From assembly GCF_009765165.1 (NCBI RefSeq), contig NZ_VLNU01000001.1:3292247-3356246 (forward strand): a stretch of 64,000 nt of DNA. Reading direction: 5' to 3'. Made by a program: the position numbers and the translations under genes. Of the stretch, positions 24,327 to 61,602 are shown piece after piece. This DNA is from Lysobacter panacisoli (GTDB lineage Bacteria > Pseudomonadota > Gammaproteobacteria > Xanthomonadales > Xanthomonadaceae). The notes below the pieces were generated by a model that was given only the letters and a program-made list of their open reading frames with translations, did not search any database and was not told where the DNA came from. The stretch's first letter is position 1; each line of letters begins with the position of its first letter.

Positions 24327-24345
24327 CCATACCTAGGTGCCATCG
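24327..24345 (+). promoter_or_regulatory. Regulon box copy upstream of SDR gene
   Basis: CCATACCTAGGTGCCATCG matches the recurring element CGAYACCWWSGTNNNATCG in plus orientation, 173 bp before the SDR start in the 331-bp gap between the kinase operon and the SDR-hydrolase operon. Confidence 0.55.
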
Positions 24346-24435
24346 CGCTTCGCGTCCTCGGCTGATTACATGGCGATGACCGCGCTCCATTGACCCGGCG
24401 GCCTGCCGTTCGAACATTCGGATACGAAAGTTGGC

Positions 24436-24447
24436 GTGTCCGGACAC
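24436..24447. promoter_or_regulatory. Palindrome GTGTCCGGACAC
   Basis: A perfect 12-bp palindrome lies 71 bp upstream of the SDR start (24519). It is a candidate operator distinct from the regulon box. Confidence 0.35.
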
Positions 24448-24518
24448 ATCACCGATACACGGGCGCCGCAGTCTGTTGGTCGCCATGAATCCCGCATCGA
24501 CTGATGGAGCGCAGTGAC

Positions 24519-25346
24519 ATGACACAACGATGGTTGATCACCGGCAGTTCCCGTGGCATGGGGCGGGCCCTCGCGCAGGCCGTGCTGCAGCAGGGGCACC
24601 GCCTGGTGGCCACGGCGCGAGATCCGTCCCAGTTGCACGATCTGGTTGACCATGGCGACGCCGTGCGCGTGGTGGCGCTGGATGTCACCGATCCGGTTGC
24701 TGCCGAAGCGGCAATCCAGGCGGCCGTCGAGGCGTTCGGTGGTCTCGACGTACTCGTGAACAACGCCGGCTACGGGAACGTCAACTCCGTCGAGGACAGC
24801 TCACTCGAGGATTTCCGCCGTCAGATCGAAACGAATCTGTTTGGCACCATCATCATGACCAAGGCGGCGATCCCGCTGATGCGGCAACAACGCAGTGGCC
24901 ACATCATCCAGTTTTCCTCCGTCGGCGGCCGCGTCGGCGCACCTGGGCGCGCACCGTACTCTGCCGCGAAGTGGGGTGTCGAAGGGTTCTCTGAAGTACT
25001 CGCGCAGGAGATGGCCCTCGTCGGCGTCCGCGTGACGATCATGGAGCCGGGCGGGTTCCGCACCGACTTCGCGGGCGCATCGACCTCGCTCGCGGAAGGT
25101 CGCCCGGAGTACGACGCCGTGGTCGGCAATGCTGCGCGCATGCAGCGCGAGTACGACGGTCGTCAGCCAGGCGATCCGGCACGAGCCGCGCGGGCCATCC
25201 TCGCCGTCGCCGCAATGGAATCACCTCCGTTGCGGCTTGCCCTAGGCAGCGATGCAGTGACCGCGATCGAACGCGTCGAGCATGCGCGCCTGGACGAACT
25301 TGCACGATGGCGAGAACTCAGCATTTCCACCGACTTCCCCCGCTGA
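24519..25346 (+). CDS. SDR-family oxidoreductase
   Basis: This 275-residue classical short-chain dehydrogenase has TGSSRGMG cofactor-binding near the N-terminus, LDVTD, NNAGYGN, catalytic serine in IIQFSSVGG and the YSAAK pair, all in order, so it should be an active NAD(P)-dependent oxidoreductase of the cytoplasm. The ATG at 24519 is preferred because GGAG lies 9 bases upstream; ATG 24504 is also in frame. It is followed after 27 bp by an exported hydrolase, and the pair ends at a strong terminator, so they form one operon downstream of a regulon box. The substrate is unknown. Confidence 0.9.
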   Translation: MTQRWLITGSSRGMGRALAQAVLQQGHRLVATARDPSQLHDLVDHGDAVRVVALDVTDPVAAEAAIQAAVEAFGGLDVLVNNAGYGNVNSVEDSSLEDFRRQIETNLFGTIIMTKAAIPLMRQQRSGHIIQFSSVGGRVGAPGRAPYSAAKWGVEGFSEVLAQEMALVGVRVTIMEPGGFRTDFAGASTSLAEGRPEYDAVVGNAARMQREYDGRQPGDPARAARAILAVAAMESPPLRLALGSDAVTAIERVEHARLDELARWRELSISTDFPR

Positions 25347-25373
25347 ACCACCACCCCACGAAAGGAGATCGAC

Positions 25374-26150
25374 ATGAAATACCTGCTTGCCGCACTGGCC
25401 CTGGGCGCCGCCTCGCTGGCAGCGTCGGCCGCTTCCGCACAAACCGCCAAGCCCACGGTCGTACTGGTGCACGGTGCGTTCGCCGAGGCCTCCAGCTGGG
25501 ACGGCGTCATCCGCATCCTGCAGAAGGACGGCTATCCGGTCATCGCCGTCGCCAATCCACTGCGCGGTGTCGCGAGCGATGGCGCGTACGTGGGAGATGT
25601 CGTGACCAGCATCGGCAAGCCGGTGGTGCTGGTCGGCCACTCGTATGGCGGAAGCGTGATCACCGAGGCCGCTCGCGGCAAGGCCAACGTGAAAGCGCTG
25701 GTATACGTGGCTGCGTTCGCGCCCGATGCAGGTGAGACCGCGGCTGGGCTGTCGGGCAAGTTTCCGGGTAGCACGCTTGGTCCTGCCGTCGCGCCGCCAG
25801 TGAAGTTGGCGACGGGGGGCAACGACCTGTACATTCGGCAGGACAAATTCCACCAGCAGTTCGCGGCGGATGTGCCGAAGACGGACGCCGCGCTGATGGC
25901 CGCCACGCAGCGTCCCATCACCGAAGCCGCGCTCAACGAGAAGTCGGGCGAGCCCACGTGGACGGGCATTCCTTCGTGGTTCGTCTATGGCGACAAGGAC
26001 CTCAACATCCCACCGAAAGCCCTGGCGTTCATGGCCGAGCGTGCGAAGTCGCGGAAGACCGAAGTGGTCGCGGGCGCATCGCACGTCGTCATGATCTCGC
26101 ACCCTGACGTCGTTGCACGCCAGATTGAGCGCGCTGCGGAAGCGAAGTAA
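25374..26150 (+). CDS. Exported alpha/beta-hydrolase
   Basis: This 258-residue protein has a textbook signal peptide (MKYLLAALALGAASLAAS, cut near SAQ) and an alpha/beta-hydrolase fold: VVLVHGAFAEASSW oxyanion segment, nucleophile GHSYGGS (S90), a likely acid in YGDKDLNIPP and histidine in GASHVVM. It belongs to the small EstC-like esterase group often found exported in Proteobacteria. A ribosome site AAAGGAG precedes ATG 25374. It is operonic with the SDR upstream and followed by an intrinsic terminator. It should act on an ester or related compound in the periplasm; the substrate is not known. Confidence 0.88.
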   Translation: MKYLLAALALGAASLAASAASAQTAKPTVVLVHGAFAEASSWDGVIRILQKDGYPVIAVANPLRGVASDGAYVGDVVTSIGKPVVLVGHSYGGSVITEAARGKANVKALVYVAAFAPDAGETAAGLSGKFPGSTLGPAVAPPVKLATGGNDLYIRQDKFHQQFAADVPKTDAALMAATQRPITEAALNEKSGEPTWTGIPSWFVYGDKDLNIPPKALAFMAERAKSRKTEVVAGASHVVMISHPDVVARQIERAAEAK

Positions 26151-26176
26151 CCCCCCTCACGCTTTGCTTCCCGCGT

Positions 26177-26207: not shown

Positions 26208-26309
26208 CCTGGCCGGTTCGCGAGAGAAGGATGCAGGCGGAGCGGCGGCGGGTACAACCCTCGTCACGGGGGGCCCCCTGGACGGACACGAACGCAGGTG
26301 CAGGGCAGC

Positions 26310-27146
26310 TCAATCCGTACGCGCTTCCGTGGGCTGCGCAACGTGCCTGCCCAGATCGAGTTCCACCTCAGACCGCGTCTGGAGCCCGGCCGCCAACAGC
26401 CTCGACATTCGCGCCTTCGTTTCCGGCCGGGCCACGGAGCGGAAGAACTCATCCAGGGCAGGGGGAAACAATGCGTCGTCGGGAAGCGAGGTTTCATCGA
26501 CGAGTCGCTTCGCGGCAACCAGCGCTTCCTTCTCGAATCCTGCGATGCGCCGTGCGAACGCGTCGACGAACGCGTCAAGCTCGTCGTCGGGCAGCGCCCG
26601 GTTGACATAGCCGTAGCGCTCGGCGAGGTCACCGCGGAAATCGTCCGCGCCAAGAATCACCTCGAGCGCTCGTCCGCGCCCGGCGAGACCGGCGAGCCGG
26701 ACCATCGGATTGCCGCCAGGCACCGCACCGACGCCTACTTCGAACTGGCCAAGGAACGCCTTCTCCGCGCTAGCGAACCGCATGTCGCAAGCGAGCACGA
26801 ACTCGCTTCCCGCGCCGCGGGCGCGGCCGCGTATCGCAGCAATCGTGACGACCGGTACGCGGCTGATACGCACCAGCACGTCGAGCCATGGGTGCATGCC
26901 GGTCGGGCCCAGCGGCATCGCGGCCGTGCGCGCCTTGTCGATGAGCACGTCGTAGTGGGCCATGAAGAAGTCGGGATCCGCGCTCGCGAATACGACCACC
27001 TTGACCGAAGGATCCTGCTCCAGCGACGAGATGAGGTCGGACAGCTGCGTGATGGTGTCCAGGTCGATCAGGTTGATCGGCGGGTTGGAGAACTCCGCAC
27101 GCCAGTAGCCCGGTGCAGGTTGCGTGACACGAATCTGCTCGCGCAT
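26310..27146 (-). CDS. Crotonase (enoyl-CoA hydratase/isomerase) family protein
   Basis: This 278-residue cytoplasmic protein has the crotonase core: IAAIRGRARGAGSEFVLACDM (oxyanion hole plus first glutamate, in segments) and FLGQFEVGVGAVPGG with the second glutamate. The motifs correspond to the two catalytic Glu of enoyl-CoA hydratases, although the substrate loop (DFFMAHYDV) is unusual. It shares ERYGYVNRALPD and other segments with the exported crotonase at 44552, so the two are paralogues. The start ATG 27146 has GAGG 6 bases upstream; the frame is open further upstream but only as antisense of the next gene. Two minus-oriented regulon boxes lie 69 and 109 bp upstream. Confidence 0.85.
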   Translation of the reverse strand: MREQIRVTQPAPGYWRAEFSNPPINLIDLDTITQLSDLISSLEQDPSVKVVVFASADPDFFMAHYDVLIDKARTAAMPLGPTGMHPWLDVLVRISRVPVVTIAAIRGRARGAGSEFVLACDMRFASAEKAFLGQFEVGVGAVPGGNPMVRLAGLAGRGRALEVILGADDFRGDLAERYGYVNRALPDDELDAFVDAFARRIAGFEKEALVAAKRLVDETSLPDDALFPPALDEFFRSVARPETKARMSRLLAAGLQTRSEVELDLGRHVAQPTEARTD

Positions 27147-27214
27147 GGGACGCCTCGCTTCGCCGACGTGGAGCGGCGGATGCAGGCAGGTTAAGGAGCC
27201 AGGCGCGCTCGACG

Positions 27215-27233
27215 GAAGAGCACGAAGGTATCG
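27215..27233 (-). promoter_or_regulatory. Regulon box copy, crotonase-proximal
   Basis: On the minus strand CGATACCTTCGTGCTCTTC matches the first twelve positions of the element, 68 bp upstream of the crotonase start. The block CACGAAGGTATCGGT recurs exactly 40 bp further on (27221 and 27261). Confidence 0.5.
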
Positions 27234-27254
27234 GTTCGCACGCATGAATGCGGC

Positions 27255-27273
27255 GCATTGCACGAAGGTATCG
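27255..27273 (-). promoter_or_regulatory. Regulon box, minus half of a back-to-back pair
   Basis: On the minus strand CGATACCTTCGTGCAATGC matches the element. With the plus copy at 27276-27294 it forms a 17-bp inverted repeat (27257-27273 and 27276-27292, two mismatches, 2-bp spacer) between the divergent crotonase and DUF6130 operons. Confidence 0.65.
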
Positions 27274-27275
27274 GT

Positions 27276-27294
27276 CGACACCTTGGTGCAATCG
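27276..27294 (+). promoter_or_regulatory. Regulon box, plus half of a back-to-back pair
   Basis: CGACACCTTGGTGCAATCG is a near-consensus copy, 59 bp upstream of ATG 27354. Confidence 0.65.
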
Positions 27295-27353
27295 ACGATC
27301 GCGCGCCTCACTGTTGAGATGGCTCGTACACACCGTACACGGGAAACCGGGTC

Positions 27354-29535: not shown

Positions 29536-30252
29536 TCAACGGCCGGGCGGTTCGCCGCCTGGTTCCAGTACGGCCGCCATCTTCACCAGGTCCGGCACCG
29601 ATCGCGCATGCATCTTCTGCATCACCCGGCCGCGATGTGCCTTCACCGTGATCTCACTGATGCCCAGGTGTCCGCCGATCTGCTTGTTGAGCAGGCCCGT
29701 CACCACCAGCGCCATGACCTCCCGCTCGCGTCGCGTAAGCGATGCATGGGCCTGCTGCAGCGAATGGACCCGTTTCACATCGTCCAGTGACGCAGCGCTT
29801 CGCTCGAGCGCTCCGCGGATGCAGTCGAGAAGCTTGTCGTCGTCGATGGGCTTGGTCAGGAATTCGATGGCACCGGCGCGCATGGCGCGCACGGTCATGG
29901 GGATGTCGCCATAGCCGGAGATGAAGATGATCGGCATGTCGGCACGGTCGGCGGCGATGAGTGCCTGCAGGTCGAGGCCGTTAATGTCGGGCAGGGTCAC
30001 GTCCAGCACGAGGCACGACGGGAGAAGCTCCCTCGGGTGCGCGAGGAATTCCCCTGCGCTGGCAAATGTCCTGGGTACCCAGCCGGCGAACCTCACCAGC
30101 GATTCGAGCGCCTCCCGAACCGAGATGTCGTCGTCCACGATGAACACGATGGGGGGAGCATCGTTCACGAAAGCCACCTCGTCAGAGTCATGCGCCTCGT
30201 ACCCGGTTGAATAATCCTTCCTGCGAACCGATGCAACAGCTTTGCTGTTCAT
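29536..30252 (-). CDS. FixJ-type response regulator (receiver plus LuxR HTH)
   Basis: This 238-residue DNA-binding response regulator has an unusual N-terminal extension of about 33 residues, then a receiver domain with VFIVDDDISVRE, phosphorylation site VLDVTLPD (D84) and FLTKPIDDD. A LuxR/FixJ helix-turn-helix follows: LTRREREVMALVVTG, ISEITVKAHRGRVMQKM. This is the only response regulator with an output domain in the window and is the natural partner of the three FixL-type kinases. Its ATG overlaps the stop of the receiver-only gene (ATGA), so both are translated together. A minus-oriented regulon box lies upstream of that pair, which suggests autoregulation. Confidence 0.93.
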   Translation of the reverse strand: MNSKAVASVRRKDYSTGYEAHDSDEVAFVNDAPPIVFIVDDDISVREALESLVRFAGWVPRTFASAGEFLAHPRELLPSCLVLDVTLPDINGLDLQALIAADRADMPIIFISGYGDIPMTVRAMRAGAIEFLTKPIDDDKLLDCIRGALERSAASLDDVKRVHSLQQAHASLTRREREVMALVVTGLLNKQIGGHLGISEITVKAHRGRVMQKMHARSVPDLVKMAAVLEPGGEPPGR

Positions 30253-30620
30253 CGCCCCTGAATCGCCACTCCCACCGCCTCCAGCAGAACCTCGCCGCCG
30301 AATGGCTTGAACAGGCAGTCGACGGCGCCGCGCGCGATGAGCTCACGGCGGATGTCGGCGTCGATCTGCGCGCTCATGAACACGATGGGGATGCGGATGC
30401 GGCGGCGGGACAGCTCTTCCTGCAGCGCCGGTCCCGACATGCCGGGCATGTAGACGTCCAGCACGAGGCAGTCCACGCGGCTGGACGCGGCGCTCGCGAG
30501 GAAGGCCTCGGCGCTCTCGAACACGTCGGTGTCGTACCCGCCGGTTCGGAGCAGATCAGGGAGGGATTCGCGGACGGACTGGTCATCGTCCACGACCGAC
30601 ACAAGTGGCCGAACGGTCAT
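30249..30620 (-). CDS. Receiver-only response regulator
   Basis: This 123-residue single-domain protein has VSVVDDDQSVRESLPDLL, phosphorylation site VLDVYMPG (D55), a conserved Ser in FMSAQ and LFKPFGG, and no output domain. Such proteins act as phosphate sinks, shuttles or allosteric regulators. It probably competes with, or feeds, the FixJ-type protein whose ATG overlaps its stop. I chose ATG 30620 (MTVRPL) because it gives a normal receiver start; the frame is open upstream to 30716. The three FixL-type kinases lack receivers, so a shared phosphate sink is plausible. Confidence 0.88.
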   Translation of the reverse strand: MTVRPLVSVVDDDQSVRESLPDLLRTGGYDTDVFESAEAFLASAASSRVDCLVLDVYMPGMSGPALQEELSRRRIRIPIVFMSAQIDADIRRELIARGAVDCLFKPFGGEVLLEAVGVAIQGR

Positions 30621-30731
30621 CAAAGTCCATCCGCGTCGTGCACAAGGCCCCCGCGGGTCTGACCGATCTTCATGCCGGATCCTCCGGAATGCGCTCCTGC
30701 GACGAGGATGCACCACTCCGGAGTCGGATTC

Positions 30732-30750
30732 ACATGGTACTTAGGTGTCG
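30732..30750 (-). promoter_or_regulatory. Regulon box upstream of response-regulator pair
   Basis: On the minus strand CGACACCTAAGTACCATGT matches the element, 111 bp upstream of ATG 30620. It supports autoregulation of the FixJ-type regulator. Confidence 0.6.
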
Positions 30751-30793: not shown

Positions 30794-30812
30794 CGATACC
30801 TAGGTGTAATCG
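30794..30812 (+). promoter_or_regulatory. Regulon box upstream of the Ohr gene
   Basis: CGATACCTAGGTGTAATCG is a near-perfect copy, 56 bp before GTG 30869, facing away from the minus copy at 30732-30750. Confidence 0.65.
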
Positions 30813-30868
30813 CCCGAGCCGCCCCTCTGCTGTTAGATCGAAGCTCCCCACGAACCCAGGTGAACGAC

Positions 30869-31468: not shown

Positions 31469-34400
31469 ATGACCCAGACGACCCTGCTCGACGCCGACCG
31501 CGAGGGCGCCGATGGCGACCTGCTGTGGGACGACGGCGAGCGGGGCTTCCATCGTCGCCGTCACGAGGCCGAGGACGGCAGCGTACTGGATTGCATTGCG
31601 GTGGTTCCGCTCGATGAGCGGCCCTCTGCCTCGGTCATCGCGCGGCTCAACCACGAACATGCGTTGAAGGCGCAGCTCGATGGCGAGTGGGCGCTGCGTC
31701 CGCTCGACCTGGTGCGGGAAGGTGGGCGCATGCTGCTCCTGCTGGAGCACCAGGAAGGCATTCCGCTGGAGCGGCTGCTGGACGGTCGACCGATGCCGCC
31801 GCCGCGCTTGCTCGCGATCGCGGTGTGGCTGGCCGACGCCATCGGTCGCCTGCACGCGACCGGCCTGGTCCATCGCGACATCAAGCCTGCAAATGTCCTG
31901 GTATCCGAGCGGGAAGGGCGAGTGTGGCTGATCGGGTTCGGCGTCGCCTCGCGCCTACCGCGCGAACGCCAGTCGCCGGATCCGCCGGAACTGATCGCGG
32001 GAACGCTGGCCTACATGGCGCCCGAACAGACCGGCCGCATGAACCGGTCGGTCGACTCGCGCAGCGACCTGTACTCGCTTGGGGTTGTCCTCTACCGGAT
32101 GGCGACGGGCGTGCTCCCATTCACTGCGTCGGACCCGATGGAATGGGTGCACAGCCACATCGCACGCGCGCCCGTTCCTCCGCGCGATCGCGTGGCTGAC
32201 GTGCCAACGGCGATCTCCGACATCGTGATGCGATTGCTGGCCAAGACACCGGAAGGCCGCTACCGCACGGCGAAGGGCGTCGCACACGATCTGCGCCACT
32301 GCCTCGCCATGCTCGAACGCGGCGAAGAGGCAGACGCGTTCTCCTTGGGCGAACGCGATCATCCCGACCGGCTGCTCATCCCGGAAAAGCTCTACGGCCG
32401 CGAGATAGAGATCAACCGGCTGATCCATGCATTCAACGATGTCGTGACCGGCGGGGCGCCGGCGCTGGTGCTGGTCGCGGGCTACTCCGGCATCGGCAAG
32501 TCGTCGGTCGTCAACGAATTGCACAAGGTGCTGGTGCCGCCGCGCGGACTGTTCGCTTCGGGCAAGTTCGACCAGTACAAGGCGGACATTCCGTATGCGA
32601 CATTCGCACAGGCATTCCAGCAACTGGTCAGGCCGCTGCTCGGCAAGCCTGAGGAGGAACTGGGCCACTGGCGCGAGGCATTCGCCAAGGCACTGGGCGA
32701 CAACGGTGCGCTCGTGCTCGAGCTGGTGCCCGAGCTCGCGCCGATCATCGGGGAGCAGCCGCCCGTTGCCGAACTGCCGGCGCAGGAGGCACAGAGGCGG
32801 TTCCAGACGATGGTGCGACGGTTCATCTCGGTATTCGCGCGTCCCGAGCATCCGCTGGCGCTGTTCCTCGACGACCTGCAGTGGCTCGATTCGGCGACGC
32901 TCGATCTGCTAGGCGACCTGCTCACCGCGGATGACCTGCGCCATGTGCTGCTGATCGGCGCCTATCGCGACAATGAAGTGACCGCGTTGCATCCATTGGC
33001 GCGCAAGCTGGAAGCGCTCGCGCACGTAGGCGCCAATGTCACCACGGTGACGCTGCCGCCTCTGGCGCGTCACCACCTGCAGCAACTGGTCGCAGAATCG
33101 CTGCACGAAGATGCGGCTCACGCGGGGCCGCTGGCCGCACTGGTTCATGCGAAGACGGCGGGCAACCCGTTTTTCGCGATCCAGTTCCTCCATGCGCTGG
33201 CGGAGGAAGACCTGCTCGCGTTCGATCATGCGACGAGCCACTGGTCGTGGAACCGCGAACTCACACTCGCCAAGGGTTCTTCGGACAACATTGTCGATCT
33301 GATGGTGCGCAAGCTGTCCCGGCTTCCGCCGCGAACGAGGAAGGCGCTGCAGACCTTCGCCTGCCTCGGTAATGCCACGACCATCGAAACGCTCTGCGTG
33401 ATCAACGCGGCCTCCGCACAGGAGGTCGAAGCGGACCTCTGGGAGGCGCTGCGACAGGAGCTGGTCTTCCGCCACAACGGGACGTACCGCTTCGCCCATG
33501 ACCGGGTACAGGAAGCGGCGTACTCGCAGGTGCCGACGGGCGAGCGCGCAGCGGCGCACCTGCGCATAGGGCGGCTGCTGGCGGCACACACGCCACCGGA
33601 GCGCCTGGAGGAAGTGATCTTCGAGATCGTGAACCAGCTCAATCGCGCGACGCACCTGCTCGACTCGCACGACGAACGCGTGCAGCTGGCCCGCTTTAAC
33701 CTCATCGCGGCGCAGCGTGCGCGCGCCGCGAGCGCGTACGTGTCCGCGCTGAACCATCTGCGCGCTGGTCGCACGTTGCTTGAGGAACAAGACTGGCAGC
33801 AAGAGTACTCGCTGGTCTTCTCGCTCGAATCGCTGATGGCCGAATGCGAGCTGATGACGGCCGAGCTCGCTGCGGCAGAGGGCCGCCTGGAGATGCTTGC
33901 AGGCCACGCACGGACGCGCCACGACTTCGCGGTCGTGACCCGGCTGCGCCTGACGCTGTTCACCACGCGCTCGCGCGGCGACCTGTGCGTGGAGGTGTTT
34001 CTCGACTACCTGCGTCGCAACGGTACGGATTGGCCCGCGCGACCCTCGCACGAAGACGTGACGCGCGAGTACGACCGCATCTGGACGCTGCTCGGCGACC
34101 GGTCCATCGAAGAGCTCGTGGATTCACCACTGGCGACTGACCAGGACGTGCTGGACATGCTGGACGTGTTCACCGAGATCGTGACGCCAGCTTTCTTCTT
34201 CGACGAGAACCTGTCGTCGCTGGTGCTGTGCCGCATGGTCAATCTCAGCCTGGAGCACGGGCCCTGCGATGGCTCCTGCTTTGGATTCGTGTTCTTCGCC
34301 ACGTTCGCCGGGCCGAGGTTCGGCAACTACCGCGACGGCTACCGTTTCGGCCGCCTCGGGTACGACCTGGTGGAGAAGCGCGGGCTGAAGCGTTACCAGG

Positions 34401-37018
34401 CGCGCACCTACATCGTGTTCGGCAACATGGTCGTGCCGTGGTTCAAGCCGTTCTCCAGCGGCCGCGACCTCATCCGCCGCGCGTTCGACACGGCATTCAA
34501 CATGGGCGACCTGACGTTCGCCGCCTACAGCTGGGATGCGCTGATCACCAACTGCCTCTCGGCAGGTGATGAACTCGCAGGCATCCAGACCGACGCCGAG
34601 AACGGCCTGGCCTTCGCGCACAAGGCCGGCTTCGGCATGGTGGTCGACCTGTGCGCGGCGCAGGTGGGTTTGATCCGCATGCTCCGCGGCCTCACCCCGA
34701 CATTCGGCACTTTCGACGATGCGGACTACAACGAGGCACAGGCCGAAGCGCACCTCACTGGCAGTCCCGTGCTGGCCCTGGCGACGTTCTTCTACTGGAC
34801 GCGGAAACTGCAGGGCCGCTGGTTCGGCGGTGATATCGATGAAGCGGTCCGGGCGGCCGAGAACGCCGACCGCCTGCTGTGGACATCGCCCTCGCAGCTG
34901 GAAACCGCGGATTTCTTCTTCTACGGCGCGCTCGCGCACGCCGCGCAGTGGCATCGCGTTCCGGTCGAACAGCGGCAGGGCCATCTGGACATCGTCATCG
35001 CCTATCACCGGCAACTGGAGATCTGGCGCGACGACTGTTCGGTGGAGAACTTCGAGAACCGCGCTGCGTTGGTGGCCGCGGAAATCGCACGGATCGAGGG
35101 GAGGTGGCCGCTGGCACAGGAGCTGTACGAACTTGCCGTCCGCTCGGCAAGCGTGAACGGCTACGTACACAACGAAGCGGTTGCCTGCGAATGCGCGGGC
35201 CACGCGTTCCTCGCACGAGGGCAGGAGCGAGCCGCACGCGGCTGGCTGCGCGATGCGCAGGAGTGCTACCGCCGCTGGGGCGCGGGCGGCAAGGTGCGGC
35301 AGCTGGGGCGATTGCACCCGTGGTTGGAGGCGGCCGGCAGCAGTACGGATGCGACGAACACGCTGCTGGCTCCCGTGGACCAGCTGGATCTGGCAACGGT
35401 CATGCGCATCTCGCAGGCCGTGTCATCCGAGATCGCACTCGACCGACTCATCGACATGGTCATGCGCGTGGCAATCGAGCATGCGGGCGCTGAGCGTGGC
35501 GTGCTGATCCTCCCGGCAGGCGGGGGCTTTCGCATCGAGGCCGAAGTGGTCACCCGTAGCGACGCGGTCGATGTTTCGTTGCAGCGGGCCGAGCTGTCGC
35601 CACAGCGGCTTCCAATGTCGGTGTTCCAGTACGTCGTGCGGACGAAGGAAGCGTTGCTGCTGAACGATGCCGGCAACCAGGGCGGGCCAGATGCCGAACC
35701 TTACTTCGCCGATAACGCCAGCCGATCGATTCTTTGCCTTCCGCTGCTGAAGCAGGCGCGCATGACCGGCGTGCTGTACCTGGAGAACCACCTTGCCGCC
35801 GATGTCTTCACGCCATCGCGCCTGGCCGTTCTGAAGCTGCTGGCGTCGGAAGCCGCCATCTCACTGGAGAACGCGCGCCTCTATGAGGAGCTCCAGGAGC
35901 GCGAGGCGAGGGTGCGGCGGCTGTTCAACTCGAACATCATCGGCATCTTCATCTGGAACCTCGACGGCCGGATCCTGGACGGCAACGAAGCGTTCCTGCG
36001 GATCGTCGGTTACGACGCGGCGGATTTGGCAGAGGGGCGCATGGGCTGGAAGCAGCTGCTTCCGCCGGAATGGGATCCTGACGACGACAGCATCATGGAG
36101 GCCATGCTGGCCACCGGCGTCGCGCCGCCGTTCGAAGGCGCATACATGCGCAAGGACGGCAATCGCGTGCCGGTGCTGATCGGCGCCGCGCTGTTCGAAG
36201 GCGCGCCGACGGAGGGCGTTTCCTTCGTGCTGGACCTGTCCGACCGCGTCGCTGCCGAAGCCGCCGCCAAGGACAGTCTGCGTCGCTACCACGACGCGCA
36301 GCTGCGCCTGGCCGATGCCAACCGCGTTGCGAGTATCGGCCAGCTGTCGGCGTCGATCGCGCACGAGTTGAACCAGCCACTGTCCGGGATCATGACCAAC
36401 GCCTCGACGTGCCTGCGCATGCTGGCCGTCGATCCTCCAGCGGTGGACGGTGCCGTCGAGACGGCGCGCCGCACCATACGCGATGCCAACCGCGCCTCGG
36501 AAGTCATCAAACGCCTGCGTTCGCTGTTCAGCCGCAAGGAGACCAGCAACGAACGCGTCGATCTGAACGAAGCGGCGGGCGAGGTCGTGGCGCTGGCCAC
36601 CAACGCGCTCGTGCGTAACCGCGTGACGCTCAAGTGCGAATTCGCGGCCGACCTGCCGCAAGTGACGGGTGACCGCGTGCAGTTGCAGCAGGTCATCCTC
36701 AACCTGCTGACCAATGCATCCGACGCTATGGGCGGACTCGAACCCGGGCGGCCGAGGCAGCTTCTGATCCGCACGTGGCATGAAGGCGACAACGCGTGCC
36801 TGAGCGTGCGCGACACCGGCATCGGCCTGGACCCGGAACTGCTCGAGCGCTACTTCGAGGCGTTCTACACCACGAAGGCCGAGGGGATGGGAGTCGGGTT
36901 GTCCGTCAGCCGCTCCATCATCGAACGCCACCACGGCCACCTTCGTGCGCTTGCGAACGAGGACGGCGGCGCCACGTTCGCCTTCGTGATCCCGCTCGAC
37001 ATCCCGGAAGCGACCTGA
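31469..37018 (+). CDS. Trifunctional kinase-like/AAA/sensor histidine kinase
   Basis: This giant 1849-residue signalling protein lacks transmembrane segments. Its domains are a Ser/Thr-kinase-like region (1-270), an AAA/STAND ATPase (from YGREIEINRL near 312; Walker A GYSGIGKSS about 338-346; Walker B LALFLDDLQW about 466), a long helical TPR-like region (about 700-1290), GAF (about 1306-1470), PAS (1480-1600), HisKA with SIAHELNQPLSG (H1632) and HATPase (NLLTNASDAM, DTGIGLD, GMGVGLSVS). The kinase-like region keeps HRDIKPAN (H135) but has GFG (G156) in place of DFG and no obvious VAIK lysine, so it is probably a pseudokinase. ATG 31469 has GGAGG 6 bases upstream. The PAS-transmitter part closely resembles the kinase at 56402. 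Confidence 0.93.
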   Translation: MTQTTLLDADREGADGDLLWDDGERGFHRRRHEAEDGSVLDCIAVVPLDERPSASVIARLNHEHALKAQLDGEWALRPLDLVREGGRMLLLLEHQEGIPLERLLDGRPMPPPRLLAIAVWLADAIGRLHATGLVHRDIKPANVLVSEREGRVWLIGFGVASRLPRERQSPDPPELIAGTLAYMAPEQTGRMNRSVDSRSDLYSLGVVLYRMATGVLPFTASDPMEWVHSHIARAPVPPRDRVADVPTAISDIVMRLLAKTPEGRYRTAKGVAHDLRHCLAMLERGEEADAFSLGERDHPDRLLIPEKLYGREIEINRLIHAFNDVVTGGAPALVLVAGYSGIGKSSVVNELHKVLVPPRGLFASGKFDQYKADIPYATFAQAFQQLVRPLLGKPEEELGHWREAFAKALGDNGALVLELVPELAPIIGEQPPVAELPAQEAQRRFQTMVRRFISVFARPEHPLALFLDDLQWLDSATLDLLGDLLTADDLRHVLLIGAYRDNEVTALHPLARKLEALAHVGANVTTVTLPPLARHHLQQLVAESLHEDAAHAGPLAALVHAKTAGNPFFAIQFLHALAEEDLLAFDHATSHWSWNRELTLAKGSSDNIVDLMVRKLSRLPPRTRKALQTFACLGNATTIETLCVINAASAQEVEADLWEALRQELVFRHNGTYRFAHDRVQEAAYSQVPTGERAAAHLRIGRLLAAHTPPERLEEVIFEIVNQLNRATHLLDSHDERVQLARFNLIAAQRARAASAYVSALNHLRAGRTLLEEQDWQQEYSLVFSLESLMAECELMTAELAAAEGRLEMLAGHARTRHDFAVVTRLRLTLFTTRSRGDLCVEVFLDYLRRNGTDWPARPSHEDVTREYDRIWTLLGDRSIEELVDSPLATDQDVLDMLDVFTEIVTPAFFFDENLSSLVLCRMVNLSLEHGPCDGSCFGFVFFATFAGPRFGNYRDGYRFGRLGYDLVEKRGLKRYQARTYIVFGNMVVPWFKPFSSGRDLIRRAFDTAFNMGDLTFAAYSWDALITNCLSAGDELAGIQTDAENGLAFAHKAGFGMVVDLCAAQVGLIRMLRGLTPTFGTFDDADYNEAQAEAHLTGSPVLALATFFYWTRKLQGRWFGGDIDEAVRAAENADRLLWTSPSQLETADFFFYGALAHAAQWHRVPVEQRQGHLDIVIAYHRQLEIWRDDCSVENFENRAALVAAEIARIEGRWPLAQELYELAVRSASVNGYVHNEAVACECAGHAFLARGQERAARGWLRDAQECYRRWGAGGKVRQLGRLHPWLEAAGSSTDATNTLLAPVDQLDLATVMRISQAVSSEIALDRLIDMVMRVAIEHAGAERGVLILPAGGGFRIEAEVVTRSDAVDVSLQRAELSPQRLPMSVFQYVVRTKEALLLNDAGNQGGPDAEPYFADNASRSILCLPLLKQARMTGVLYLENHLAADVFTPSRLAVLKLLASEAAISLENARLYEELQEREARVRRLFNSNIIGIFIWNLDGRILDGNEAFLRIVGYDAADLAEGRMGWKQLLPPEWDPDDDSIMEAMLATGVAPPFEGAYMRKDGNRVPVLIGAALFEGAPTEGVSFVLDLSDRVAAEAAAKDSLRRYHDAQLRLADANRVASIGQLSASIAHELNQPLSGIMTNASTCLRMLAVDPPAVDGAVETARRTIRDANRASEVIKRLRSLFSRKETSNERVDLNEAAGEVVALATNALVRNRVTLKCEFAADLPQVTGDRVQLQQVILNLLTNASDAMGGLEPGRPRQLLIRTWHEGDNACLSVRDTGIGLDPELLERYFEAFYTTKAEGMGVGLSVSRSIIERHHGHLRALANEDGGATFAFVIPLDIPEAT

Positions 37019-38210: not shown

Positions 38211-38272
38211 CTGGGTCACCTCGTTGTGGGGAGTGGCGGTATGGTCACGCTACGCCCGCAGTTGCGCGGTGG

Positions 38273-38291
38273 AAATCGTACGATGGTGTCG
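38273..38291 (-). promoter_or_regulatory. Regulon box upstream of the SRPBCC operon
   Basis: On the minus strand CGACACCATCGTACGATTT matches the element 62 bp upstream of ATG 38210. It is especially close to the copy at 61545-61563, sharing GACACCATCGT and GATTT. Confidence 0.55.
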
Positions 38292-40462: not shown

Positions 40463-40479
40463 GCGCACGTTACGTGCGC
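40463..40479. promoter_or_regulatory. Inverted repeat GCGCACG-TTA-CGTGCGC
   Basis: A perfect 7-bp repeat with a 3-bp spacer lies between the exporter operon and the molybdoenzyme gene. It could bind an additional regulator. Confidence 0.35.
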
Positions 40480-40492: not shown

Positions 40493-40511
40493 CCATCATA
40501 CGAAGGTGTCG
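40493..40511 (-). promoter_or_regulatory. Regulon box upstream of the HlyD-DUF2955 operon
   Basis: On the minus strand CGACACCTTCGTATGATGG matches the element, 70 bp from ATG 40422. No plus-oriented copy faces the molybdoenzyme gene at 40598. Confidence 0.6.
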
Positions 40512-42967: not shown

Positions 42968-42986
42968 ATCGCATACGAAGGTATCG
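42968..42986 (-). promoter_or_regulatory. Regulon box, minus half of a pair
   Basis: On the minus strand CGATACCTTCGTATGCGAT matches the core. Together with the plus copy it forms a 14-bp inverted repeat (42973-42986 and 42989-43002, two mismatches, 2-bp spacer). There is no divergent gene here, as the molybdoenzyme gene ends at 42883. Confidence 0.55.
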
Positions 42987-42988: not shown

Positions 42989-43007
42989 CGACACCTTCGT
43001 GTAATCG
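42989..43007 (+). promoter_or_regulatory. Regulon box upstream of the epoxide-hydrolase operon
   Basis: CGACACCTTCGTGTAATCG is a perfect consensus copy, 101 bp before ATG 43109. Confidence 0.65.
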
Positions 43008-43108
43008 ACCTTGCGCTGCGTCCTTGGTGTGATCTTCCACGCGCATTGTGCATGGAAGACCTTGGCGCCGGCTCCGGCCGGCGCACCTCTCCCCACCGAG
43101 GAATCGCC

Positions 43109-53173: not shown

Positions 53174-53192
53174 CGATACCAAAGCGGGATAG
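53174..53192 (+). promoter_or_regulatory. Weak regulon-box copy upstream of the DJ-1-like gene
   Basis: CGATACCAAAGCGGGATAG fits the element with some mismatches, 234 bp before ATG 53427. The rest of the 324-bp gap 53103-53426 has no gene I can support. Confidence 0.35.
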
Positions 53193-56401: not shown

Positions 56402-59400
56402 GTGCGTGCACGCGTATTCGTGGCCCTGTTGCACGTCCTCGTCGGATTGTTTGCTACGGCAGGAGCGCCGGCTTGGGCACTTGATCCCGAGCTCACGATC
56501 TCCAACTACGGACATCGCTCGTGGCGCGGCTTCGAGGGTCTGGGCGCCGGCCCCATCACCGCCATCGCGCAGACCGCGGACGGCTATCTGTGGCTGGCCA
56601 CACCCAATGGCCTGCAACGCTTCGATGGAGTCAGCAGCGTTCCTTGGCCCCCACAGGCCAAAACCGTTCTCGCGGCCGACAGCATCCGTGCCCTGCTTGG
56701 ATCCCGGGACCGGACGTTGTGGATCGGCACGACGAAAGGACTCGTAAGCCTCGCGAACGACAAACTCATCGTCCATCCGGCCTTTACGGGCCGGACCATC
56801 AATGACATCGAAGAGAACGTGGATGGAACCATCTGGGTGGGGGGATCGGAGGGAAAGCACGCCTTGCTCTGCTCGATCCGTGGCGCGGACATCGAATGTC
56901 ACGGTCGTGACGGATCGCTCGGAGAGGAGATCAGCGCGCTTCATCGCGACAGCTTGAACGCGCTGTGGGTCAACGGTGGCAATCGCGTTTGGAACTGGAT
57001 GAGCGCACCAACGAAACCTTTTACGGTCAGCCCTCCGTCCGTCTCGCAAGCGCGTCGTGCCATGACCGAGATAACACCCGGCACTGTGGTCGTGGGGAGG
57101 GGCTACATGCGCGGGGTGGCTAAGGTCGGCCAAGGCAAGGTGGAAGCGCTGGAGCTGCCGGCCTGGGCGAAAGACTTTGTTTACATCAAGGCGATGCAGG
57201 ATCGCGATGGCGCTGTCTGGCTGGGCGCGGCCGACGCGGGGCTGATTCGAATCTTCAAAGGGCGCGTAGATGCGTTCACCGCGTCGGATGGACTTTCCGG
57301 CAACCACATCCTCGATTTGTTCGAGGATCGCGAGGGAAACTTCTGGGTCGCGACGTCCCGTGGCTTGGATCAGTTCCGGGCGGTGGCGGTAGCACGCCAT
57401 GAAAACGCGGAAGGCCTGACAGGACGCGGCCGCTCCCTGCTCGCGGCGCATGACGGCTCGCTTTGGGCGGGCACAACCACAGGCGTGTTTCAGCTGGACG
57501 CGACACGGCAACGATGGGAACTTCGCTGGCCGCGCATGGGGGGGCTGTTCGAGGACAGCCGCGGCACGATGTGGTCGGCGTCGCCCAGTGCCGCAGGGCT
57601 GCAGTCGTACTCCAACGGGCGCATCGGAACGGCGCCGGGCGTGCCGCCGGGCCCGGTCGAAGCGGTCACCGAAGATACTTCGGGCAACCTGTGGATTGCA
57701 CATCGTTCGGCCGGGCTGATGCGCCTGCGTCCAGGCGGGCGTGCCGAGGTAGTGACGGACCGGTACAGGTTCGCGACTGATCGAATCTCAATCATGACCG
57801 CCGACCCCGTCGATGGTTCGCTGTGGCTGGGGCTGTGGACAGGCGAAGTCGAGAATGTTCTCAACGGCCAGCGCCGCGCGCGCTTCGATCTCATTGCGCC
57901 TCGGCAACCGCGTGCACGGATCAACCATGTCCGCGTTGAAGCGGACGGGTCGGTCTGGGCATCCACGCGGCAAGCACTCAGCCGCATCAAGGACGGCCAC
58001 GTCGTCCATCTGGTTACAGGACTCGGGCCTCCGTGTGACGGGCCGTTGTGGTCGGTCGCCGATGCGCGGCGCGTCTGGATCTCGACACGCTGTGGCGTGG
58101 CCTGGAGCGACCGTGCAGACCTCGATGCGCGAGTTTCCGCGGCATCGCAAGGCGGCTCGCGAAAGGCGCACTTTCGCTTGCTCGAACCGTGGGATGGCGT
58201 CTCCCGAGAACTTGGCCCCGGGATGATCGGCTACACGACCATTCCGTATGTATTCGCACCCAAGATGGCGCAGACGCCGGATGGCCGGGTATGGGCAGCG
58301 AGCGGCGACGATATCGTCACCATCGATCCACAGCGCATTCCGGTCAACCTGTTGCCTCCGCCCGTCGACATCCAGAAAGTAATCAGCGACGGCCGCATCT
58401 TCGCCCCGACAGCTGACATGCGCATTCCACCACGGCCGCGGAATCTCAGAATCGAGTACACCGGCCTGAGCTTCAGGGCATTGGATAGGACCCAGTTCCG
58501 CTACAAGCTGGATGGCTGGGACGCCGATTGGCAGGATGTTGGGAACCGGCGTCAGGCCTTCTACACGGATCTTTCGCCTGGGCGGTACCGCTTCCATGTC
58601 ACAGCAGCCAACGATAGCGGCGTATGGAACCCGGTGGGTGACGCGCTGGAGTTCACGATCGAACCCGCCTGGTGGCAAAGGACCGACCTTCGAATCGCTG
58701 CCGCGGTAATGGTCGCACTGGCATTGTTCGCCTTCTACCGGCGTCGCGTGGATCACCTCTCCCGGATGCTTGCATCCGAAACGGCTTCCCGCCGCGAGAT
58801 CGGTCGCCTTTACAGCGACCTGCAGGAGCGTGAGTCGAGAGTGCGCCGATTGTTCAATGCGAACATCATCGGGATCTTCACCTGGAACCTGGACGGCCGC
58901 ATTCTCGAAGCGAATGAGGCCTTTGCAACGATCGTCGGCTACGACAGCGCCGAACTCGTTTCCGGACTGCGGAAGTGGAAAGACCTCATGCCGCCGGAGT
59001 GGGACCCTTCGGACGATAGGATCATGACCGACATGCTGGCTACGGGAGTTGCGACCCCATTCGAGGCGGAGTACATCCGGAAAGACGGCTCTCGCGTACC
59101 GGTTCTCGTCGGCGCGGCGCTGTTTGATGTCAGACCGGGGGAGGGCGTGGCGTTTGTCCTAGACCTGACCGATCGCAGGAGGGCGGAGCAGGCGGCGCGG
59201 GACAGTGATCGCCGATACCACGACATGGAAAGGCGACTGGCCGAGGCAAACCGTGTTGCGAGTGTCGGCTACCTGTCCGCTATGATCGCTCACGAGGTCA
59301 ATCAACCGTTGTCAGGTGTCATCACCAACGCCACTACTGCTCTGCGCATGCTCGATGTCGATCCGCCGAACATCGACGGTGTCTATGATGCGGCGCAACG

Positions 59401-59959
59401 CATCATCCGGGATGGCCACCGGGCTGCCGAGGTGATCAGGCGTTTGCGATCCATGTTCAGCAGGAAGGATCACGTGCTGGAGGTGATCGATCTGAACGAC
59501 GCTGCGCGCGAGGTCGTTGCCATGGCGCGCAACGACCTGGAAAAGCACGGCATCGAGATTCACCAGCAATTCGCCGATGGCCTTCCACGCATCAAGGGGG
59601 ATCGCATCCAGTTGCAGCAGGTGATCCTCAATCTGCTGCGCAATGCGTCTGACGCGATGGCGGGCGTCCAGGGCCGGCCTCGTAGCCTCCGGATCCGAAC
59701 CGAGCGCGAGGCAAGCGGAGGCGTCCGTCTGGCGGTTCGAGATGCAGGCATCGGGCTGCCTGCGGAGGATCTCGAACGGCTCTTCGATGCGTTCTACTCA
59801 ACCAAGGGCAGCGGGATGGGTATTGGCCTGTTCATCAGTCGGTCGGTCGTCGAGCGGCACCAGGGCCGCCTCTGGGCGGAACCGAACGACGATCATGGCC
59901 TCACTTTCTCGTTCTCCCTTCCGCTGGAGCCGAGCATCGTCCACACCGCGATCCGGTAG
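56402..59959 (+). CDS. Beta-propeller (two-component-regulator) sensor histidine kinase
   Basis: This 1185-residue membrane kinase has a signal sequence (RVFVALLHVLVGLFATAGAPAWA), a periplasmic double beta-propeller of repeats such as DGYLWLATPNGLQRF and EGNFWVATSRGLDQF (about 30-640), a Y_Y_Y domain (about 680-755), one transmembrane helix (about 760-780), PAS (from 813), HisKA with MIAHEVNQPLSG (H964) and HATPase (NLLRNASDAM, DAGIGL, GMGIGLFIS). There is no receiver. The family senses sugars or other periplasmic ligands. PAS and transmitter are closely similar to those at 31469. GTG 56402 has GAGGTGG 4 bases upstream. Confidence 0.93.
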   Translation: MRARVFVALLHVLVGLFATAGAPAWALDPELTISNYGHRSWRGFEGLGAGPITAIAQTADGYLWLATPNGLQRFDGVSSVPWPPQAKTVLAADSIRALLGSRDRTLWIGTTKGLVSLANDKLIVHPAFTGRTINDIEENVDGTIWVGGSEGKHALLCSIRGADIECHGRDGSLGEEISALHRDSLNALWVNGGNRVWNWMSAPTKPFTVSPPSVSQARRAMTEITPGTVVVGRGYMRGVAKVGQGKVEALELPAWAKDFVYIKAMQDRDGAVWLGAADAGLIRIFKGRVDAFTASDGLSGNHILDLFEDREGNFWVATSRGLDQFRAVAVARHENAEGLTGRGRSLLAAHDGSLWAGTTTGVFQLDATRQRWELRWPRMGGLFEDSRGTMWSASPSAAGLQSYSNGRIGTAPGVPPGPVEAVTEDTSGNLWIAHRSAGLMRLRPGGRAEVVTDRYRFATDRISIMTADPVDGSLWLGLWTGEVENVLNGQRRARFDLIAPRQPRARINHVRVEADGSVWASTRQALSRIKDGHVVHLVTGLGPPCDGPLWSVADARRVWISTRCGVAWSDRADLDARVSAASQGGSRKAHFRLLEPWDGVSRELGPGMIGYTTIPYVFAPKMAQTPDGRVWAASGDDIVTIDPQRIPVNLLPPPVDIQKVISDGRIFAPTADMRIPPRPRNLRIEYTGLSFRALDRTQFRYKLDGWDADWQDVGNRRQAFYTDLSPGRYRFHVTAANDSGVWNPVGDALEFTIEPAWWQRTDLRIAAAVMVALALFAFYRRRVDHLSRMLASETASRREIGRLYSDLQERESRVRRLFNANIIGIFTWNLDGRILEANEAFATIVGYDSAELVSGLRKWKDLMPPEWDPSDDRIMTDMLATGVATPFEAEYIRKDGSRVPVLVGAALFDVRPGEGVAFVLDLTDRRRAEQAARDSDRRYHDMERRLAEANRVASVGYLSAMIAHEVNQPLSGVITNATTALRMLDVDPPNIDGVYDAAQRIIRDGHRAAEVIRRLRSMFSRKDHVLEVIDLNDAAREVVAMARNDLEKHGIEIHQQFADGLPRIKGDRIQLQQVILNLLRNASDAMAGVQGRPRSLRIRTEREASGGVRLAVRDAGIGLPAEDLERLFDAFYSTKGSGMGIGLFISRSVVERHQGRLWAEPNDDHGLTFSFSLPLEPSIVHTAIR

Positions 59960-60009
59960 TGGTCGGAAGATCGTCGGGGAAGCAGGCGTGATGGCATGTG
60001 GTGCCTTTT

Positions 60010-60028
60010 GAATACCTAGGTCCAATCG
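60010..60028 (+). promoter_or_regulatory. Regulon box upstream of the FMN-reductase gene
   Basis: GAATACCTAGGTCCAATCG matches the element with one or two mismatches, 67 bp before ATG 60096. Confidence 0.6.
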
Positions 60029-60095
60029 ACGGGACGACGCCCCGGATAGATCATCGTTCGCCAACGGGTTTGGTAATCCCGAAGGAGTTCGAGCC

Positions 60096-60683
60096 ATGTC
60101 CATGCCTAGAATTGCCGTCATCATGAGCACGACGCGCGCAGGACGGTTCGCCGATATACCTGCTGCCTGGATCTCCGACCTTGCTCTAGCCCGCGGCGAC
60201 ATGGAGGTGGAGCTGATCGATCTGCGAGATTACCCGATGCCGTTCTTTGACGAGCCGGCATCCAATGCATGGGTTCCGTCCAGCAGCAACATTGCGCGGA
60301 CCTGGCAGGGCAGGGTGGCCAGCTTCGACGGCTACGTCTTCGTCACCGCCGAGTACAACCGCGGTGTCCCGGCCGTTCTGAAGAATGCACTCGACTATGC
60401 CTATCCCGAGTGGAACCGGAAGCCGTGTGCGTGTGTCGGCTATGGGAGCGTGGGCGGCGCCCGCGCGATTGAGCAGCTGCGGCTGAACTGCATTGAGTTG
60501 CAGATGGCGCCGACGCGGAGCGGGGTGCACATCCAGGGGCGCGATTTCTTCGATGCGCTTCGCGAAGGCAAGCCGTTGTCCGACATTCCCTACATTGCAG
60601 AGAACGCGGTGACGATGCTGGACGAGCTGCTCTGGTGGACGCTCGCTCTCAAGGACGCCCGCACGACGCGGAGCGGAACATAG
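60096..60683 (+). CDS. NADPH-dependent FMN reductase family protein
   Basis: This 195-residue flavodoxin-like protein has the FMN-phosphate loop STTRAGRFADIPA, VTAEYNRGVPAVLKNALDY and GYGSVGGARAIEQL, the signature of NADPH:FMN reductases/azoreductase-like quinone reductases. It should reduce quinones or flavins in the cytoplasm. AAGGAG precedes ATG 60096 by 8 bases, and a regulon box stands 67 bp upstream. It converges with the LolA-like gene after 25 bp. Confidence 0.92.
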   Translation: MSMPRIAVIMSTTRAGRFADIPAAWISDLALARGDMEVELIDLRDYPMPFFDEPASNAWVPSSSNIARTWQGRVASFDGYVFVTAEYNRGVPAVLKNALDYAYPEWNRKPCACVGYGSVGGARAIEQLRLNCIELQMAPTRSGVHIQGRDFFDALREGKPLSDIPYIAENAVTMLDELLWWTLALKDARTTRSGT

Positions 60684-60708
60684 CCGCATTCGTCACTTGG
60701 TAGGAACT

Positions 60709-61428
60709 TTACGAGTAGCTGATGTCGCTCAAGTCAATCCACACCATCAGCATGTCAAGGTTTGGACGCCCGTCCGGGCCGCGTGTGTAGGCGCGACGTC
60801 GTGTCGGCAGGGCGATTCCGCCGCTGCGTACGTGTTCCGAGGTCAGCTGCGAGGCGGCAAAGCCGCCGGCGATGTTCACCTGGTAGTCGTGGCGACGCAG
60901 CATGAACGACTCATCGAAGAAGAAGTCCTGAACCAAGCTGTGTGTTTCGATCGAACCAGGGAAACGCGCACGCAGTACGCGCCAGCGCTCCTCGCCCTCT
61001 TGCCACGGTTCGATCTCTTCGACCGCCACTTCTTGCATGGCAAGTAGGAACGGCGTCGCCAGATATGTCCATAGCGCCTCGCCATTGAAGTAGGCGCGGT
61101 GCAGTGGGTCCCAGGGCGTATTCATCTGGTGTCCGGCAAAGGAATCCTTGGGCGCGAGTCGCTCTGTAAGGACGCTGCCGTCCAGCCTTTCGACTGCCAC
61201 GCGGTTTGCTGTGAATGCCGAACGCTGGTCCGGCGCGCCGTACGGCTGCAGTGTCATGCGCTCCTCGTGAAGCCAGGACGTCACTCGCCTCGGATCGGCG
61301 TCCTGGATGATTCCCTTCAGAGCAAAGAAGCCGCCGCCACTAATGATCGTGGCATCAACGCGCTTCAGGCTACGCCAGCGGTCGATCCCACCATGTGCGT
61401 GTAGAACGTTCTGGAGCAGTATGTCCAC
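60709..61428 (-). CDS. Uncharacterised protein of a LolA-like fold family
   Basis: This 239-residue protein shows LLQNVLHAHGGIDRWRSLK at the start, then FAGHQMNTPWDPLHRAYFNG, RARFPGSIETHS and a strand-rich C-terminus with LPTRRRAYTRGPDGR. It resembles a family found in Actinobacteria and Proteobacteria with a lipoprotein-localisation-like (beta half-barrel) fold and no known function. I chose GTG 61428 because GGGAGG lies 5 bases upstream; the frame stays open to 61587. A minus-oriented regulon box lies 155 bp upstream. Confidence 0.68.
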   Translation of the reverse strand: MDILLQNVLHAHGGIDRWRSLKRVDATIISGGGFFALKGIIQDADPRRVTSWLHEERMTLQPYGAPDQRSAFTANRVAVERLDGSVLTERLAPKDSFAGHQMNTPWDPLHRAYFNGEALWTYLATPFLLAMQEVAVEEIEPWQEGEERWRVLRARFPGSIETHSLVQDFFFDESFMLRRHDYQVNIAGGFAASQLTSEHVRSGGIALPTRRRAYTRGPDGRPNLDMLMVWIDLSDISYS

Positions 61429-61544
61429 TTCGGCCTCCCAGGATCGTGCGCCGCGATAAAGCAGCCACAATTCTCGGTTCGTCCCAGGCGCCACGCCATT
61501 GACCATTGGTGTTGGTAATCGGAGGCGCGCCGGGACGATGGGGT

Positions 61545-61563
61545 AGACACCATCGTCTGATTT
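61545..61563 (+). promoter_or_regulatory. Regulon box copy in the 425-bp divergent gap
   Basis: AGACACCATCGTCTGATTT matches the element and is closely similar to the copy at 38273-38291. It faces the nitronate monooxygenase operon (start 61854) but is far from it (290 bp). Confidence 0.5.
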
Positions 61564-61583
61564 CGCCGGGACGGTTCCGTATC

Positions 61584-61602
61584 GCATCCTGCGAAGGTGC
61601 CG
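61584..61602 (-). promoter_or_regulatory. Regulon box upstream of the LolA-like gene
   Basis: On the minus strand CGGCACCTTCGCAGGATGC matches the element with about three mismatches, 155 bp upstream of GTG 61428. A weaker ACTTAGGT core also occurs at 61738-61745. Confidence 0.5.

Follow-up and report, generated by a model that had tools for sequence, protein, structure and literature searches.

Which protein, if any, reads a short sequence that recurs in front of many genes within one region of a bacterial chromosome? This question is raised by a 64,000-nt stretch of Lysobacter panacisoli (contig NZ_VLNU01000001.1, positions 3,292,247 to 3,356,246; hereafter the window), where a first-pass annotation had listed 14 copies of a 19-bp directional element between positions 24327 and 61602 and had proposed a FixJ-type response regulator as the binding protein. 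Our analysis indicated that the element is very probably the operator of the island's own StyR/FixJ-type regulator (29536..30252, minus strand), fused to a sigma-70-like promoter. The element is real and local; the best reading makes it the operator-promoter of a regulator of StyR type, one that moves together with its regulon.

The recurrent element and its architecture

Using CGAYACCWWSGTNNNATCG with up to three mismatches, 23 matches were found in the window versus 5.5 expected, a number that none of 100 shuffles reached, and 12 of the 14 listed sites were recovered, those at 42968 and 61584 being missed. The whole window was also scored (M2) with a matrix that had been refined on relatives, from 192 unique sites, a value ≥14 being counted as strong in the window. 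Eleven listed copies were strong (24327, 27215, 27255, 27276, 30732, 30794, 38273, 40493, 42989, 60010 and 61545), and no further position reached 14; the remaining three scored 13.1 (53174), 12.5 (42968) and 2.0 (61584). The count of 14 thus stands for the 11 strong copies, with 42968 as an auxiliary copy and 53174 as a weak one that is conserved in another genome of the genus (G129), but 61584 was dropped for its low score. Twelve of the 14 lie in gaps of the gene calls, but not all are intergenic as had been claimed, because an open reading frame (ORF) of uncertain start, at 60709..61587 on the minus strand, overlaps 61545 and the opening bases of 61584. Called coding sequence makes up 89.5% of the region from 24 to 62 kb, and 10 of the 11 strong sites lie outside called genes; the matrix therefore does not match coding DNA as often as promoters in the window, a comparison made only roughly elsewhere. 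No Rfam family was found in the window at gathering scores.

The architecture was derived from 192 unique sites of 80 related loci, 26 of 218 matches having been dropped as near-duplicates, plus those near contig ends. Their consensus is CRAYACCWWSGTNYAATNGA, with positions 1-20 conserved; little information follows until the next downstream peak at 38-46, with TATNAT at 40-45. By its sequence, the element is a 14-bp palindrome, GATAC-CWWS-GTATC, with the right half altered into a -35-like box (ATNGA). A hexamer matching TATAAT at four or more of six positions stands at offset 40 in 68 of the 192 sites, at 41 in 14 and in no more than eight at each remaining offset between 24 and 61, and TTGACA fits best at position 17 (range 12-29), leaving a 17-bp spacer to the -10. 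This spacing of the -10 behind the -35-like box predicts an operator centre near -43, and the element owes its direction to the -35 box sitting in the right half of a palindrome. As a less biased test of the link between ATNG and the -10, the left part alone, CRAYACCWWNGT, was searched in 87 sources, giving 272 matches versus four for the reversed pattern; among 237 unique matches, a -10 was present at position 40 in 48 of 139 with ATNG versus three of 98 without it (odds ratio 16.7), so the link is strong. The earlier description thus holds in that the sequence looks regulatory and directional, but instead of one 19-bp element the unit is better described as a palindromic operator of 14 bp that merges into a -35-like box and is followed at fixed spacing by a -10.

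A second, symmetric operator was found upstream of 93 of the 192 sites, and of none when the upstream bases were shuffled once each (21 offsets in this control, 26 in the real sequence); its centre is 17 or 18 bp away, two adjacent spacings, in 82 of the 93. Regulator and kinase promoters form a conserved subclass with a CAAA core, in which a GGCGCATCCT-like sequence is present in 26 of 45 versus six of 143 other genes, and TATAAT at position 40 in three of 45 versus 64 of 143. Promoters of this CAAA-core, GGCGCATCCT-like subclass are seen in the window at 30732-30750 and 61545-61563, and in loci L088-L167.

We infer binding, phosphorylation, and activation rather than repression. A regulator dimer, presumably phosphorylated, would bind the palindrome; at promoters, the altered right half-site ATNGA would double as the -35 box, 17 bp from the TATNAT -10, which would place the dimer at about -43, the position of a class II activator. 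A second dimer would often occupy a symmetric, reverse-oriented copy 17-18 bp further upstream. The regulator would thus activate the operon that encodes it, together with detoxification and redox operons that are private to it.

Co-occurrence of regulator and site

Sequence, geometry, co-occurrence with the regulator and confinement to the island were observed directly. Throughout the 3.88-Mb genome, the exact matches number three, all inside the window, which also contains two of the three matches with one mismatch; this indicates that the element is local, and the adjoining 57 kb (both sides summed; L188-L190) held no site ≥14. At up to two mismatches, 46 of 54 matches in this genome lie off the window, compared with 13 matches of the reversed pattern in the whole genome; 25 of the 46 were taken up as loci, and the top off-window whole-locus scores were 18.2 (L010), then 15.6. 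This excess was provisionally ascribed to coding sequence; the off-window matches run through long open frames, a feature that does not discriminate because the true sites do likewise.

Across 149 genomes of the family, including the L. panacisoli genome itself (G000), an exact GAYACCWWSGTNNNATCG match was found in 14, and more than one match only in G000 (3), G129 (3) and G146 (2), so that the element defines no regulon of the family at large but one confined to the island. In G129, the cluster is largely syntenic, with an 82% regulator match (tblastn), and the promoters that correspond carry sites, some of them as head-to-head pairs. The cluster of G146 is small, with a 56% regulator, epoxide hydrolases, MsrA and one perfect site. 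The second match in G146 (272261, 22 kb from its regulator) and the match in G072 were regarded as chance. A narrow pattern, GAYACCWWSGTGYAATCG, matched only the L. panacisoli genome among 229 genomes of the class; it is too strict to carry much weight.

Beyond the family, 80 regulator loci (the best 80 of 191 confirmed in genome contigs, 57-71% identity) were scored with a matrix from 12 window sites at a threshold of 18 bits. A site was present in 70 of the 80, with 200 sites in all, whereas 20 column-permuted matrices averaged 0.7; the first-pass annotation's pairing of the copies with the regulator at 29536 is thereby borne out. These loci come from Acidobacteriota (21 of 24 with a site), Alphaproteobacteria (18/19), Betaproteobacteria (10/15), Gammaproteobacteria (12/12), unspecified Proteobacteria (1/1), Gemmatimonadota (4/4), Verrucomicrobiota (1/2), Nitrospirota (1/1), Planctomycetota (1/1) and Armatimonadota (1/1), as labelled from record titles, Burkholderiales being counted as Betaproteobacteria and many records being metagenome-assembled genomes with unchecked binning. 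In 18 whole genomes (G000, G129, G146 and 15 chosen from the 80), the refined pattern at up to one mismatch gave 144 matches versus eight in reverse. Of the 54 exact matches, 50 were within 50 kb of the regulator, which indicates a local regulon of a detoxification and redox island rather than a genome-wide one. In a phylum sample of 397 genomes, an exact match was found in 22 and a reversed-control match in 17; because these numbers are close, lone matches are mostly chance. Twenty exact-match regions of this sample were read: the regulator (helix KAHRG, 64-65% identity) is encoded in all three with clustered sites, and the 17 with a lone match showed no such regulator within the stretch. L207 and L220 of the clustered regions were already in the 80-locus set and L221 was new; G683 was omitted as a duplicate of G616. 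The recurrence of regulator and site together, in soil bacteria from several phyla, suggests joint travel of the entire circuit.

Eighteen loci of the L. panacisoli genome that encode paralogous regulators or receivers, drawn from the 20 best of 53 matches, had no strong site within 1.5-kb flanks (best 13.3). A second FixJ-type regulator, 44% identical, is encoded about 23 kb left of the window (G000:C1:3269062-3269643), and its short flanks hold no site.

The site may also vary with the recognition helix. A site of at least 18 bits was found in 63 of 68 loci with Ala after the recognition lysine and in seven of 12 others (Fisher 0.005, which the kinship of the sequences keeps from being a strict probability). 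Among exact palindromes of the form xxxAC-N4-GTxxx (C or G at an N4 end) in 64 Ala/Gly-type loci, GATAC occurred 17 times and the next three times. Four Burkholderia/Paraburkholderia loci (L110, L115, L135 and L147) have Met after the lysine, and their exact palindromes were CATAC (4), TATAC (3), AATAC (2) and GATAC (2); these loci being close relatives, the spread is a lead only. We put forward tentatively, as a possibility somewhat on the doubtful side, that the whole circuit of sensor kinases, receiver, StyR-like regulator, private operator and changing electrophile- or oxidant-detoxifying cargo moves between phyla as one module, insulated from host regulation as the operator occurs almost only inside it, and that the residue after the recognition lysine (mostly Ala; Met in four loci) helps to set the outer half-site base and so keeps sister modules apart. 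A patchy group of soil-bacterial stress genes with poor annotation (epoxide hydrolases, crotonases, P460, DUF6130 and others) becomes one testable regulon; with operator, start sites and regulator predicted, the inducer could be sought with a single reporter; and the regulator and its DNA site, which appear to have moved together between phyla, offer natural recognition-helix variants for specificity studies.

Predicted promoters, candidate sensors and genes of the island

The leftmost copy (24327..24345, plus strand, M2 18.1; -10 TTACAT 24366-24371) is a putative operator/-35 serving the short-chain dehydrogenase/reductase (SDR; 24519) and abhydrolase (25374) genes. The promoter copy at 27215..27233 (minus, 14.4) has a weak right half and a -10-like TAACCT at 27188-27193, facing the crotonase gene (26310-27146, minus). 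A candidate auxiliary operator without a good -10 (27255..27273, minus) lies head-to-head with the operator/-35 at 27276..27294 (plus, 24.9; -10 TGAGAT 27315-27320) of the DUF6130, cytochrome P460 and metallo-beta-lactamase (MBL)-fold genes, their centres 18 bp apart, and G129 carries a pair resembling them at 478956/478977. Upstream of the receiver/regulator operon, where a copy had rightly been noted, is the predicted operator at 30732..30750 (minus, 20.5), with a regulator-type promoter (CATCCT 30705-30710; G129 counterpart 482534). It is followed by operator/-35 copies at 30794..30812 (plus, 25.2; -10 TTAGAT 30833-30838; G129 482588) for Ohr (30860) and perhaps an 1849-aa kinase, at 38273..38291 (minus, 23.4; -10 TAGCGT 38247-38252; G129 490068) for the gene at 37674-38210 (minus) and isochorismatase (37022, minus), and at 40493..40511 (minus, 25.5; -10 TAACGT 40467-40472; G129 492273) for HlyD (39361, minus) and DUF2955/FUSC (38316, minus). 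The nearly symmetric auxiliary copy at 42968..42986 (minus, 12.5; G129 494750) has no -10 and lies head-to-head with the operator/-35 at 42989..43007 (plus, 26.1; -10 TGTGAT 43028-43033; G129 494771), as a reverse copy 18 bp upstream, centre to centre; the latter would serve epoxide hydrolase (43109), crotonase (44552) and OprB porin (45520 onward). Further right are a weak operator without a good -10 (53174..53192, plus, 13.1) upstream of the DJ-1/PfpI gene (53427), with a counterpart at G129 469243 that is identical at 18 of 19 positions and precedes the orthologous gene; an operator/-35 (60010..60028, plus, 19.1; -10 GATCAT 60049-60054) for the FMN reductase (60096); and an operator (61545..61563, plus, 19.1; regulator-type CATCCT 61585-61590) upstream of the nitronate monooxygenase (61854), whose best G129 match (60% identity, 502628) also has a site upstream, at 502472. 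The distances to start codons were roughly as claimed (56-70 bp for several copies) and depend on the start chosen. The back-to-back copies reported earlier are real, but such a pair can be an auxiliary plus a promoter operator instead of two promoters.

By Pfam, the proposed binding protein consists of a REC and a LuxR/GerE DNA-binding domain, with the recognition helix ITVKAHRGRVMQKM, and its gene overlaps by four bases that of a stand-alone receiver protein (30249..30602, minus). The 1849-aa protein at 31469..37018 (plus), with a Ser/Thr kinase - AAA - GAF - PAS - histidine kinase order, is a candidate upstream sensor; among the matches listed, it has one close relative (G129, 74%), matches of 33-34% over most of its length in G126, G014, G100 and G033, and otherwise single domains. 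A PAS/GAF histidine kinase (20394..24053, minus) and a Reg_prop-PAS-histidine kinase (56402..59959, plus), whose transmitters share 42% and 64% identity, respectively, with the transmitter of the 1849-aa kinase, may be a second and a third input. Related transmitters thus stand on three kinases of different input architecture, as if several signals reached one regulator. At annotated plasmid loci, PAS kinase, receiver and regulator occur together, once followed by a trifunctional kinase and epoxide hydrolase.

The linked genes are, as had been stated, largely of detoxification and redox type. The left part of the island encodes the SDR, abhydrolase, crotonase, DUF6130, cytochrome P460, MBL-fold protein, regulator, receiver and Ohr, and the middle the 1849-aa kinase, isochorismatase, HlyD, FUSC-like proteins, molybdopterin oxidoreductase, epoxide hydrolase and OprB; redoxin, MsrA, DJ-1, HbpS, cupin, FMN reductase, nitronate monooxygenase and DUF3237 are also present. 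The product of 37674-38210 (minus) had no Pfam match, leaving its "SRPBCC" label unconfirmed. Behind the 192 sites, ORFs were picked by a simple script; four sites without a downstream ORF were omitted, and 132 of 188 first downstream proteins were scanned for Pfam, the others being long kinases or incomplete, distant, long, short or doubtful proteins. The scanned first genes included epoxide hydrolase N-terminus (24), response regulators (18), enoyl-CoA hydratase (11), cytochrome P460 (7), SDR (7), glyoxalase (4), OsmC/Ohr (3), AhpC/TSA (3) and DJ-1 (3). These classes suggest that the signal, and so the inducer, may be a reactive electrophile or an oxidant. Beside the island, at about 12200-16600, gene calls are few and third-position GC is lower, possibly marking a mobile or decayed region.

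Alternative readings and known systems

Another regulator of the island could bind the element, for example the LysR protein encoded at 50380 or one of another type, with the response regulator merely linked. The LysR gene does belong to the island, the G129 cluster contains a 73% match to it, and a LysR gene adjoins the regulator at L202, one of four annotated plasmid loci with sites; however, L192, L193 and L194 show none, whereas PAS kinase, receiver and regulator are present in four of four. Across phyla, it is the KAHRG regulator that co-occurs with the sites, in a comparison unsystematic for other shared neighbours, and the ACN4GT core is identical to that of StyR/TodT sites, so we regard this explanation as unlikely. 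An extracytoplasmic function (ECF)-type sigma factor promoter pairs a non-palindromic -35 with a -10; a conserved element at a fixed distance upstream of a second one, and the different conserved GGCGCATCCT of regulator promoters, would suit such a promoter, but the operator is palindromic, its symmetric auxiliary copies lack the promoter part (ATNG), and the -10 is of TATNAT type. Moreover, no scanned island protein had its best match in a sigma factor family, the regulator's helix-turn-helix matching Sigma70_r4 models weakly, and an alternative sigma factor thus appears very improbable. Several copies grouped in one region, some back to back, might also be remnants of a mobile element without regulatory role, similar to repetitive extragenic palindromes or miniature inverted-repeat transposable elements (REP/MITE), which is scarcely credible given that likeness ends at the operators, -35 and -10, that the corresponding G129 promoters retain copies and that the same sites precede different genes in other phyla.

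Several observations count against an operator of the StyR-like regulator fused to a promoter. A good -10 at position 40 occurs in only 68 of the 192 sites; in the window its match is 3-4 of six bases for seven of the 14 sites and poorer for the others, and regulator promoters carry another conserved sequence in place of TATNAT. The contrast between promoter copies with a -10 (n = 68; right half GTAT in 6%, ATNG in 93%) and auxiliary copies (n = 104, looser rule; 53% and 10%) is partly built in by the selection of each set. Five of the 68 Ala-type loci lack a site of at least 18 bits (L114, L133, L144, a 3.6-kb contig, L152 and L165), and the helix correlation is only partial because seven of 12 non-Ala loci have one. 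Among 12 plasmid regions chosen from 40 listed plasmid matches (420 records), sites accompany five of five KAHRG regulators, none of six with KVHR/KIHR and not L196 (helix unreadable), but helix type is confounded there with overall identity (54-64% for KAHRG, 47-52% for the others).

The mechanism is of a known kind, whereas operator, regulon and spread are apparently undescribed: a literature search on the regulon, operator, DUF6130 and FixJ with epoxide hydrolase, with most subscription journals outside its range, found no description, and the TodT box as a literal string had no match in it. FixJ is the regulator's best NCBIfam match but falls below the cut-off (187 vs 255 bits), and no nitrogen-fixation genes were found among the scanned island proteins, in contrast to FixLJ. 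HstK-type Ser/Thr-His dual kinases, comparable by domain content, likewise carry both kinase domains in one protein; the kinase at 31469-37018 differs in lying within a cluster that also encodes a FixJ-type regulator. With StyS/StyR and TodS/TodT, FixJ/NarL-family systems of styrene and toluene catabolism, the island shares a REC + GerE regulator, but it serves many stress-type operons and has several kinases plus a receiver protein, whereas TodS-type systems are described with one hybrid kinase.

The closest solved relative is StyR (1yio), the regulator's best PDB match (2e-55). StyR is reported to have a high-affinity site near -40 and more than one site at each promoter (PMC2442086); in the island, the -10 position predicts an operator centre at about -43. 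Another report gives ATAAACN4GTTTAT as the StyR-like operator consensus and K175, V176 and H179 as putative contact residues (PMC5874301); set against these, the island operator GATACN4GTATC has only ACN4GT in common, and the helix, TVKAHRG versus TVKVHRH in StyR, keeps only the recognition lysine, the other two contact residues differing by alignment (A205 and G208). A kept lysine with two changed residues fits an operator that shares the ACN4GT core and differs in its flanks.

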